DNA of 64,000 nucleotides, taken from the NCBI RefSeq assembly GCF_041765605.1, contig NZ_CP168900.1, positions 1,380,001 to 1,444,000 on the forward strand. Reading direction: 5' to 3'. Made by a program: the position numbers and the translations under genes. Positions 39,363 through 42,846 of the stretch are shown piece by piece. Positions within the stretch are counted from its first letter, which is position 1; each line of letters begins with the position of its first letter. The notes under the pieces were generated by a model that was not told the origin of the DNA, made no database searches, and saw only the letters and a program-made list of their open reading frames with translations. The stretch comes from Listeria monocytogenes. GTDB taxonomy: Bacteria > Bacillota > Bacilli > Lactobacillales > Listeriaceae.

Positions 39363-40810
39363 CGACTAGCCCATTTTCCTTAAAAAGTCGTTCTTTGAAA
39401 TTTAAATGGACTTTTGGAGCTAGTGCAGCCATTTTTCTAACATTTTTCTTGTTTTCCTATGCTATTTACCAAGGAATTGGGCAAATGTTGCTAAATGAAG
39501 AAGAACCGGAAGTAAAAGAACTGCTTCTAGCAACAACGAGTACGTTAACTAATCAAGATTTGACCGATAATGAGGAAATTAAGTATTTATTTAATAACGA
39601 TAAAACGGTGAATCGAAAATTACAAGATCAAGTAATTAATCTGTATGATAAAGACGGCCATTTTATTAATAAGTATTATTTTTCAAGAAATCAAGATATC
39701 ACGAGCATTGATTTTTCGCAGTATTTTGTTAGTGGGACAGACAAGTTTATTATGAATAAACCAACGATTGACGGACAGAAGATGATGACGGCGCAAATGC
39801 CGATTGTAGCGGACGACAATACGACCGTGATTGGTTACGCGCAGGTGGTAAATCCGCTCACTTCCTATAATCGGATGATGGACCGGCTTCTAGTTACGAT
39901 GATTTTACTTGGGGCTGTAGCGCTCTTTATTAGTGGAATGCTCGGTTATTTACTGGCACAAAATTTCTTGAATCCACTGACTCGTCTAGCTCGAACAATG
40001 AATGATATCCGAAAAAATGGTTTCCAAAAACGAATCGAAACGAAAACTAATTCTCGCGATGAAATTGGCGAATTAACCGTTGTTTTTAATGATATGATGA
40101 CGCGAATAGAAACTAGTTTTGAACAGCAAAAGCAATTCGTAGAGGATGCTTCTCATGAATTACGTACCCCAGTGCAAATTATGGAAGGCCATTTAAAATT
40201 ACTCACTCGTTGGGGAAAAGATGATCCAGCTGTACTTGATGAATCATTAAATGCTTCGTTAACAGAATTAGAACGCATGAAAAAATTAGTACAAGAAATG
40301 CTTGATTTATCAAGAGCGGAACAAATTTCACAAACAAAAGAATTACAAATTACTGATGTTAATGCAACGGTAGAACAAGTAAGACGTAATTTTGAAGTCA
40401 TGTATGAAAATTTCACGTTTACCTTAAAAGAAGATGATACTGATTTACGAGCGCTTATCCAGCATAATCATTTAGAGCAGATTTTAATTATTATTATGGA
40501 TAATGCCGTGAAGTATTCAGGTGACGGCACTGAAGTGGATATGCATGTCTATAAAGAACAAAAGCAAATCCATATTGATGTGCGCGATTACGGGGAAGGC
40601 ATTTCACAAGAAGAAATTGATAAGATATTTAATCGTTTCTATCGTGTGGATAAAGCTAGAAGCCGCGAAAAAGGTGGTAATGGCCTCGGACTTGCGATTG
40701 CTAAACAATTAGTCGAAGGATATTTAGGAACGATTAATGCGGTTAGTGAGCCAGATAAAGGTACAACGATAAAAATTACACTTCCTTACATTGAACCAAA
40801 ATCCAAATAA
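39359..40810 (+). CDS. lisK: Sensor histidine kinase LisK
   Basis: Membrane sensor that phosphorylates LisR. It has 483 residues: TM1 about 20-40, an extracellular sensor region of about 135 residues, TM2 about 177-200, a HAMP domain, then HisKA with the phospho-His H266 in FVEDASHELRTP. The ATPase domain has the N box (IIMDNAVKYS), the G1 box (DYGEGI) and the G2 box (GGNGLGLAIAKQL). The native cue is not visible from the sequence; published phenotypes point to cell-envelope stress. Translation is coupled to lisR by an ATGA overlap. Confidence 0.95.
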   Translation: MTTSPFSLKSRSLKFKWTFGASAAIFLTFFLFSYAIYQGIGQMLLNEEEPEVKELLLATTSTLTNQDLTDNEEIKYLFNNDKTVNRKLQDQVINLYDKDGHFINKYYFSRNQDITSIDFSQYFVSGTDKFIMNKPTIDGQKMMTAQMPIVADDNTTVIGYAQVVNPLTSYNRMMDRLLVTMILLGAVALFISGMLGYLLAQNFLNPLTRLARTMNDIRKNGFQKRIETKTNSRDEIGELTVVFNDMMTRIETSFEQQKQFVEDASHELRTPVQIMEGHLKLLTRWGKDDPAVLDESLNASLTELERMKKLVQEMLDLSRAEQISQTKELQITDVNATVEQVRRNFEVMYENFTFTLKEDDTDLRALIQHNHLEQILIIIMDNAVKYSGDGTEVDMHVYKEQKQIHIDVRDYGEGISQEEIDKIFNRFYRVDKARSREKGGNGLGLAIAKQLVEGYLGTINAVSEPDKGTTIKITLPYIEPKSK

Positions 40811-40853
40811 AAAAACCGCAACCTTATGAGGAGGTTGCGGTTTCTTTTATTTT
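40811..40853. terminator. Bidirectional terminator between lisK and yidC
   Basis: ACCGCAACC / GGTTGCGGT with A run on the left and TTTCTTTT on the right serves the converging lisRK and yidC transcripts. Confidence 0.85.
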
Positions 40854-41674
40854 TCTTTCTTTTGTTCTTCCACGATTTGCTCGAATTCTTTTTCTTCTTG
40901 TTCCATTACTTTAATTTCTGGATGTTTATTCATGTAAAGTTTTTTCGTTAGTAATGTTTGACCTGCTAAGAAGAGTCCGCCGACAGCCCAGTATAACGCT
41001 AGAGCGGAAGGTGCTGTGAAGGATACGAATAAAATCATAATAGGAGACATTAAACCGATAATTTTCATTTGTTTCTTCTGTTCTGGTGAATAACCAATCA
41101 TGGAAACAAAGTATTGTGCTAAGTAGACAAGTCCGGCGATAATTGCAAGCACCATATCCGGTGAACCTAAGTTAAACCATAGGAATGTGTGTTCAGCAAT
41201 TTCGGAAGATCCACGAATAGCATAATAGAAAGCCATCAATATCGGCATTTGAATAAGTAACGGTAAACAACCCATTTGCATCGGATTGATATTATACTTG
41301 GAATAAACGGCCATCATTTCTTTTTGAATAGTGGCTTGTTCTTCTTTCGATGTAGCACGTTTTAGTCGAGCTTGAATTTCATCAATTTCTGGTTTGGCAA
41401 CAGCCATTTTGGATTGCATTCCCATTTGAGCTTTAGCAGTACGTAAGTTTAGCGGCATAATCAGTGCACGGATAAGCAATGTTGTAATAATAATCGCAAT
41501 TCCGTAATTACCCCCAACAAACTTTGCAACGAACATAATAAAACTAGTAAATGGTTGAATCAAATAAGTGCTGAAAAAACCATCTGTATTTTGTGACGGG
41601 TCCATACTACAACCTGTAAGTAATAGTAGAGCACCAAGTAAAACGCTAATTAAAATAATATTTTTCTTTTTCAA
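40847..41674 (-). CDS. yidC: Membrane protein insertase YidC/OxaA (lipoprotein type)
   Basis: Inserts small membrane proteins and helps fold others beside SecYEG. It has 275 residues, a signal peptide with lipobox LLTGC (Cys22), five predicted membrane spans, and a conserved groove arginine, tentatively R69 in [13 protein letters not shown]. The basic-acidic cytoplasmic tail ends EEQKKEK. The only possible start is TTG 41674; an in-frame TAG lies 8 codons upstream. AGGAGG is 11 bases away. The start region is locked in an inverted repeat with the end of the upstream mini-gene, suggesting translation control. Listeria is known to have a second YidC elsewhere. Confidence 0.94.
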
Positions 41675-41734
41675 TGTTTCATTTTCCTCCTAAATAGTAA
41701 AATAATCGATTCATACGTTGGAAAATGAAAAACT
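41672..41734 (-). promoter_or_regulatory. Stem-loop masking the yidC translation start
   Basis: On the minus strand TTTCATTTTCC (41730-41720, inside the last codons of the upstream gene) pairs perfectly with GGAAAATGAAA (41687-41677, part of the yidC Shine-Dalgarno and spacer). The loop is 32 bases. With one mismatch and one G-U the stem extends to about 15 positions and reaches the TTG start codon. The layout matches the mifM-yidC2 leader of B. subtilis. Confidence 0.75.
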
Positions 41735-42001
41735 GTCTTCGTCATCAGTAATAGCGCTACATTTCCGAGTTATAGCCAACCAATTAATAACAAAATTAGG
41801 TGAGGTTACATAAATTTGTGCTCGAAGTGAAATCTTTACTTGCTTTAAGCAGATAGCGTCAGCGGGTAGCACCATTTTCGGTTTTAATAATGTAATGGCC
41901 GACCAATAACTGAAAATCGTCAACATTAATAAAAACGTTACTGTGAGTGAAATGAATTCTGGTTCAAGTAAAATTTGTAAAATGGAAATCATGCCACGCA
42001 T
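41711..42001 (-). CDS. Single-span membrane protein upstream of yidC, candidate MifM-type arrest sensor
   Basis: A 96-residue protein not belonging to any enzyme family I know. It has an acidic N-terminus (E13, E15), one membrane span (about 17-39) and a positive KPK after it, predicting N-out/C-in. A cytoplasmic tail ends with NFVINWLAITRKCSAI (69-84), then D86-D87-E88-D89 and SFSFSNV. B. subtilis MifM is about the same size, has one N-terminal span, and stalls ribosomes through an Ile/Trp segment followed by an acidic cluster near residues 85-89. The stop codon is 36 bases from yidC, and the last codons pair with the yidC start region. The start is ATG 42001 or ATG 41992, behind AAAGGAG. 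Function is inferred from architecture. Confidence 0.72.
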   Translation of the reverse strand: MRGMISILQILLEPEFISLTVTFLLMLTIFSYWSAITLLKPKMVLPADAICLKQVKISLRAQIYVTSPNFVINWLAITRKCSAITDDEDSFSFSNV

Positions 42002-42077
42002 TCGCTCCTTTCTAGGTTTTAGTACTCATTAACTATAATGCAAAAAGAGCTATAGCACAACTACTATTTTTGGGATT

Positions 42078-42359
42078 TTAGTAAACGATGTCAAACGTTT
42101 TTCGTTCTTCTACGGGCGCACCTTTGTAAATGTATACATGTTCGATACGACAACCAGGTGATGGTCCTTTTTTGATAGCATCAATAAATTTATTTAAGTT
42201 TTCTTCTTCCGCAATTGCATGAATTTCAACGGAACCGTCATCTAAATTTTTTACTGTTCCACTAATATCATATTTGTAAGCGACGTGTTTAGTAGTATAA
42301 CGAAATCCGACACCTTGCACAAATCCAGTTACTCTCAAAATCGCTGTATCTCTAGCCAT
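42078..42359 (-). CDS. Acylphosphatase
   Basis: Hydrolyses carboxyl-phosphate bonds such as acetyl-phosphate. It has 93 residues. The signature [16 protein letters not shown] carries the phosphate-binding loop and the catalytic Arg. [13 protein letters not shown] holds the catalytic Asn and completes the family pattern. The ribosome-binding site AAAGGAGTTGG precedes the ATG. It lies upstream of the membrane mini-gene and yidC on the same strand (76-base gap); co-transcription is possible but not shown. Confidence 0.93.
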
Positions 42360-42456
42360 GGCGAAACCAACTCCTTTTATTTTTCCTTATTACTAGTGTA
42401 TCTTTTTTTAGCATTACTTTCAAAAATTTGCATTCCAGTATTTCCAGAAAGCTTAT

Positions 42457-42464
42457 GCTATAAT
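42457..42464 (+). promoter_or_regulatory. Extended -10 promoter of the DUF1033 gene and fni
   Basis: TGCTATAAT with -10 TATAAT at 42459-42464; the -35 is weak. It is 35 bases before the ATG at 42499. Confidence 0.6.
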
Positions 42465-42498
42465 AAGTGTATTATATTTACTGTTGGGAGTTTTTGAT

Positions 42499-42846
42499 AT
42501 GACAAAATGGAATGTCTATCTAACTAAAGGCGAATACGAGCCTTGGTGGTTTTTTGAGGAGTGGGAAACTTCCATTCAAGCCGACTTTGCTTTTTCAGAT
42601 AAGGAAGCAGCCTTTCTGAAGTATCAAGAGTTAGCAGACGAGTTACTACGGAATTATCCTAACCATCAAACAAAAAAAGATTGTTTGCTTGCTGCTTGGA
42701 ATGAGGAAGAAGTAGAGTACTGTGAGGACTGTGAAGATGATATTCAAACATTTCACGGACTTATTTTATTTTCTGATGGGGAAGTATATCAACCAACTCC
42801 CGAAGAAAAAGAGACGATTTTTAAACCTGTTTTAACCTTTGCTTGA
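42499..42846 (+). CDS. DUF1033 family protein
   Basis: A 115-residue acidic cytoplasmic protein of unknown function. The family signature is the aromatic stretch YEPWWFFEEWE near the N-terminus. A cysteine pair YCEDCEDD (about 74-81) could bind metal or be redox active; that is speculation. I use ATG 42499, which follows GGGAG by 9 bases; an in-frame TTG at 42484 is upstream of the site. It lies 28 bases before fni and is probably co-transcribed with it. Confidence 0.8.
   Translation: MTKWNVYLTKGEYEPWWFFEEWETSIQADFAFSDKEAAFLKYQELADELLRNYPNHQTKKDCLLAAWNEEEVEYCEDCEDDIQTFHGLILFSDGEVYQPTPEEKETIFKPVLTFA

Follow-up and report, generated by a model that had tools for sequence, protein, structure and literature searches.

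A putative MifM-type leader upstream of the second yidC gene in Listeria monocytogenes and other Listeriaceae

Described leaders of yidC and the Listeria locus

The closest described counterparts of the locus analysed here are small leader open reading frames (ORFs) located upstream of a yidC gene. MifM, the leader of yidC2 (yqjG) in Bacillus subtilis, has about 95 residues, a single N-terminal anchor with N-out/C-in orientation, and a tail in which the pattern I-x-x-W-I/L is followed by an acidic cluster near residue 86; a hairpin over the downstream Shine-Dalgarno sequence is in register with the ribosome stall. Its arrest residues in B. subtilis are R69, I70, W73, I74, M80, N81 and D86-E87-E88-D89 (PMC4423224), and a survey from 2024 reports MifM in 592 genomes (PMC10987492). 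CliM of Clostridia (uC_KYxIW) is a YidC-monitoring leader as well, equipped with an anchor, an arrest tail and a hairpin over the start, which according to its authors resembles none of the other arrest peptides known (PMC13183943). ApcA of Actinobacteria likewise precedes a second yidC and carries an N-terminal anchor (PMC7897499).

Here, we analysed a leader ORF in a window of Listeria monocytogenes DNA (the whole stretch under analysis, 64,000 nt), which very probably works as a sensor of YidC capacity in the manner of MifM, in a divergent form. It shares with MifM the position ahead of the second yidC, the length, the predicted anchor, the tail pattern and a hairpin in register with the stall that we infer for Listeria. 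In contrast, CliM is marked by a K-Y-x-I-W motif of its own (PMC10987492), and ApcA arrests at R-A-P-G, a sequence absent from the Listeria leader (PMC10987492, PMC7897499). An earlier note on this DNA had proposed a MifM-type leader controlling yidC in Listeria, and comparative tests of tail conservation, compensatory stem changes and register support this proposal.

The presumably regulated gene, yidC2 (40847..41674, minus strand), encodes a membrane insertase of 275 residues with a TTG start (Pfam 60KD_IMP, E = 8.5e-40). It is preceded by the Shine-Dalgarno sequence AGGAGG (41686..41691, minus strand), which is seen directly in the sequence, and followed by a terminator-like hairpin (40809..40847, minus strand) according to a consensus scan only. 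An Rfam search of positions 40600-42600 (E up to 1) returned six matches, all under their gathering scores and all at 40747-40898 around this terminator, with none at the hairpin over the yidC2 start, and a promoter scan stayed at chance level (six found, 7.1 expected). The source genome holds two YidC matches; the copy in the window is the second, and the stronger family-profile match is located close to the chromosome record's end. From the gene order, we take the window copy to be lmo1379, and the small leader ORF is presumably lmo1380. The YidC pair of L. monocytogenes is listed in a table of PMC3415414, with Lmo1379 as the YqjG-type and Lmo2854 as the SpoIIIJ-type protein. In the main texts searched we found no description of the Listeria leader and no naming of lmo1380, all matches being for lmo1379, and a single paper mentions both MifM and Listeria, once each; the supplementary list of PMC10987492 may already include Listeria.

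Counted from its first ATG, the leader is a frame of 96 codons (42001-41711, minus strand) with its stop 36 nt before the TTG of yidC2. The earlier note had given both values, of which the distance stands and the length does not, as the conserved start is found at codon 4, leaving 93 residues plus stop (41711..41992, minus strand). The use of the three codons ahead of it (41993..42001, minus strand), including the first ATG, as a start is not conserved: across 33 aligned genomes the first-ATG codon reads ATG in 10, CTG in 12, TTG in five and a non-start codon in six. The Met4 codon (41992) is ATG, GTG or TTG in 25 of the 33, and the other eight, all from one genus, carry GTG in the immediately preceding codon. 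A ribosome binding site, AAGGAG (42005..42010, minus strand), lies 12 nt before codon 4, and GGAG is present 10-12 nt 5' of the Met4 codon in all 33 aligned genomes. Given this lack of conservation at the first ATG, we number from Met4 (93 residues; W71, D83-D86).

The single-span, N-out/C-in topology that had been read from the sequence agrees with our prediction: a hydropathy peak marks a putative transmembrane segment at residues 18-36 (41885..41941, minus strand), with two Glu before it and Lys after it, and the positive-inside rule predicts the N-out/C-in orientation. The arrest-like tail runs from F67 to D86 (41735..41794, minus strand) and includes W71 (41780-41782) and D83-D84-E85-D86 (41735-41746). 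From the predicted end of the anchor to D86 there are 50 residues, compared with the more than 30 between anchor and arrest site that are required of the MifM family and with a published MifM median of 54 from anchor to stall (PMC10987492). The same survey asks for a five-residue local charge below -0.3 within residues 70-100 (PMC10987492); the window protein, the only member scored, reaches -0.8 at residue 82. Pfam and NCBIfam contain no family that matches the ORF at E values up to 10.

Remote similarity to MifM and its evolutionary setting

Sequence similarity to MifM was found by profile-profile comparison, and in the tail only. When 398 genomes of the class were searched with a profile of the Listeria leader, 19 genomes other than the source genome contained weak matches (E 0.01-0.1), and three of these matches fall in ORFs immediately upstream of yidC. 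Several further families have ORFs with this tail ahead of yidC, and of 29 non-Listeria yidC loci examined, many are without such an ORF. With a tail profile of 14 rows, five of them from Listeriaceae, we obtained 14 matches with E <1e-3, all directly upstream of yidC; ten are training rows, and of the four others one is a near-copy of a training row. Among the weaker matches of this profile that were examined, six new ones adjoin a yidC at E 0.013-0.35 (G337, G406, G331, G273, G197, G260). In one Bacillus-like genus a matching ORF is present in 44 of 44 genomes, and a representative of this genus (L171) carries R69, I70, W73, I74, M80, N81, D86-E87-E88-D89 and A90-G91-S92 at the published residue numbers of B. 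subtilis MifM.

Aligned by hhalign, the Listeria family and 17 non-Listeria tails reach a score of 29.0, and none of 300 column shuffles exceeded 14.0. The score of 29.0 is partly circular because some of the 17 rows came from Listeria-based profiles or were chosen for their acidic tail. The less circular comparison with the MifM tails of the one Bacillus-like genus gives 24.3, with a maximum of 16.5 in 200 shuffles. At full length, the profile comparison with the MifM of this genus is weak (probability 24%), and nothing similar is found outside the tail region, just as the earlier note had limited the resemblance to the tail pattern. The similarity is at the edge of detection, since the reverse genome search with the non-Listeria tail profile recovered the leader in only three of 34 genomes and missed the source genome. 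Searches of PDB sequences found no MifM chain.

The window protein has counterparts for I70, W73, I74 and the acidic cluster and none for R69, M80 and N81, so that the B. subtilis-type arrest sequence is absent from it; this sequence, R69 to D89, is a feature of a subgroup and not part of the definition of the MifM family, and R69, M80 and N81 occur together in only two of the 17 non-Listeria alignment rows. Moreover, the acidic cluster of Listeria lies one to two residues nearer the Trp than in MifM. Tentatively, these differences could mean that the Listeriaceae MifM holds the ribosome via different contacts, with no Arg69 or Met80-Asn81 and a shifted acidic cluster, and that the hairpin has tracked the tail, a reading that we regard as possible rather than probable. 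If it is true, Bacilli would have had MifM as a YidC sensor since ancient times, with an arrest chemistry that was rebuilt in each lineage.

The earlier note had left it open whether the Listeria gene is a fast-evolving relative of MifM or an independent version, and the profile comparisons lean towards a diverged relative. If an arrest peptide of this design had originated in Listeriaceae apart from MifM, it would have the same function, and this alternative overlaps with the preferred explanation. A separate origin would be in line with an alignment to the MifM of one genus that covers the tail region only and is weak at full length, and with the failure of the tail profile of other families to find most of the leaders. 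It would also fit the gene neighbourhood. A YidC2 tree of 40 rows unites the Listeriaceae with three genomes from their own order, which we take to be Lactobacillales, with a support of 84/96. In these three (L185, L186, L187) an acylphosphatase gene is directly upstream of yidC as in Listeria, and the gap of about 70-160 nt is too short for a leader; an acylphosphatase gene upstream of yidC was seen in none of nine Bacilli loci with MifM-like ORFs. On the other side, no column shuffle reached the score of the tail profile, other families provide intermediate sequences, and the YidC2 tree shows a scattered distribution of MifM-like ORFs, as expected of an old element that was lost repeatedly, with at least four changes by well-supported branches and deep forks that are weakly supported. 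Taken together, an independent invention appears improbable.

The simplest reading would be an old MifM in Bacilli that was kept in Listeriaceae and lost in their same-order relatives, which the weakly supported deep forks do not prove. Our confidence in this shared descent of the Listeria leader and MifM is somewhat lower than in a MifM-type mode of action. If the MifM-type reading is true, this type of control extends to the Listeriaceae, a family that groups with leader-less relatives. Listeria does not sporulate, and a non-sporulating genus would gain a feedback sensor for membrane-protein insertion. Besides, in some Bacilli (L127, L128, L138, L148) the MifM-like ORF extends beyond the beginning of the yidC open frame, taken from stop to stop, and an overlap of the two is possible.

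A hairpin over the yidC2 start in register with the tail

The 11-bp inverted repeat over the end of the yidC Shine-Dalgarno sequence and the spacer that the earlier note had described is exact: TTTCATTTTCC (41730-41720) pairs with GGAAAATGAAA (41687-41677), both on the minus strand. Its suggestion that the pairing continues past one mismatch to the start codon also holds in RNA folding, in which one unpaired base beyond the repeat is followed by four more pairs covering the yidC TTG. The 5' arm (41720..41735, minus strand) is formed by the last codons of the leader, and the 3' arm (41672..41687, minus strand) comprises the end of the Shine-Dalgarno sequence, the spacer and the TTG start. Initiation codons at this position are TTG in 27 of 34 genomes and GTG in the other seven, with ATG in none.

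On its own, the fold of the window sequence is mildly better than its shuffles (z = -1.71; 14 of 200 equally good), and it is the comparison of arms across species that places the hairpin beyond chance. Among 16 representatives, the arms of the same genome pair with a mean of -13.7 kcal/mol vs -10.5 (sd 0.6) for permuted arms, and none of 20,000 permutations was as good; when only the seven divergent species are taken, a fraction of 0.0017 was as good. The arms of the relatives differ in sequence (for example TTTCATTTTCC/GGAAAATGAAA, TGTTCTT/AAGAACA and TGTCTT/AAGACA), a one-base length change is matched between both arms, and two-sided, compensatory changes are found at several stem pairs in a set of 21 genomes. 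Judged from these comparisons, the two arms change together and co-evolve. Both arms carry an indel that distinguishes the clades, and a MAFFT alignment of the region misplaced the 5' arms from one clade to the next, so that pair-counting on it was dropped for the arm-swap test. Duplexes between arms of the same genome are weak at -6.3 kcal/mol in both G012 and G006 and at -8.9 kcal/mol in G023. In the loci of G012 (L026) and G006 (L028), the 5' arm sits further upstream, before the acidic codons rather than after them.

In a control with synonymous codons in the tail, all 17 genomes are more closed than their mean recoding, but they fall within the lowest 5% or less in only four of 17 for accessibility and four of 17 for free energy, which counts against the MifM-type reading. 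For the window, 36 of 300 recodings are as closed and 70 of 300 as stable, which is not striking.

Counted from the first base of the Trp codon, the 5' arm starts 47-52 nt further on in 28 of 34 genomes, and the codon equivalent to the MifM P site (16 after Trp; D89 in MifM) begins at base 48. Of the bases paired with the region from the Shine-Dalgarno sequence to the start, two thirds or more lie within the footprint of a modelled ribosome with its P site 16 codons after Trp in all 34 genomes. With the footprint removed from folding, the predicted accessibility of this region rises from a mean of 0.25 to 0.61 and does so in 34 of 34 genomes, partly by construction; for the Shine-Dalgarno sequence alone, the gain is almost nil in G035, G003, G025 and G016. 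The proposal that a ribosome paused at the tail would cover the first arm and free the yidC start finds support in this register. A stem-loop that hides the Shine-Dalgarno sequence and can be opened by a tail-stalled ribosome, as asked of the MifM family, is represented here by folding and arm co-variation.

Based on these features, we infer the following course. The leader anchor would be a substrate for YidC-dependent insertion. During slow insertion, the tail, with I/V-x-x-W-L/I followed by D-D-E-D, would stall the ribosome about 15-16 codons past the Trp, and the stalled ribosome would sit on the 5' arm, exposing the Shine-Dalgarno sequence and the weak TTG, so that YidC2 could be made. 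If insertion is fast, pulling would release the chain, the ribosome would run off and the hairpin would close.

Selection on the leader and its distribution in Listeriaceae

Of 36 Listeriaceae genomes, 34 carry a leader ORF upstream of the second yidC and on the same strand. The two others form a separate genus, presumably Brochothrix, and have no yidC2 either, with one YidC match each, a distant one (E ~1e-47); as the presumed Brochothrix genomes are without this yidC, they are unusable as a test of leader conservation. In three genomes (G029, G032, G033) yidC2 is broken into two matches, by assembly errors or decay.

Selection acts unevenly along the leader. In 105 pairs from 15 close genomes, dN/dS is as low as 0.01 in codons 1-40 and 0.06 in codons 65-86, with 0.34 in codons 41-64 between them, the pattern to be expected if an anchor and a tail working inside the ribosome are joined by a free linker. 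Residues invariant across 17 chosen sequences are Q6, P11, V18, T19, W30, K37, P38, M40, W71 and D83. The tail Trp and the acidic cluster, in which the earlier note had seen the mark of an arrest sequence (its W74 and D86-D89, W71 and D83-D86 after renumbering), are both kept across the Listeriaceae.

This distribution of constraint bears on plain translational coupling, in which the leader would be an ordinary small membrane protein and ribosomes nearing its stop codon would open the hairpin with no programmed stall. Hairpin and ORF order would look identical in that case, and the stall in the leader is a prediction of the MifM-type reading. However, coupling does not account for conservation that is concentrated in the anchor and the W...DDE tail while the linker drifts, for a tail that resembles ORFs upstream of yidC in other families, or for an arm that starts at the MifM-type stall position in most genomes, and we consider it very improbable. 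A spurious ORF, or a remnant in decay, next to a hairpin that alone matters, for example as a thermosensor, has next to no probability: the first ATG is not conserved and among the 34 copies the frame of G028 is interrupted, by assembly error or decay, but it is open in the other 33 and the protein is under strong purifying selection. For the MifM-type sensor, the Listeriaceae set, in which tail and arms have drifted together with the stall register unchanged, would offer a test bed for the tail residues that cause arrest.

Finally, a short frame, ATG-AAA-CAT-TGA (41671-41682, minus strand), lies between the Shine-Dalgarno sequence and the yidC TTG, with which its stop overlaps; absent from the divergent species, it is present in all 15 close relatives compared.
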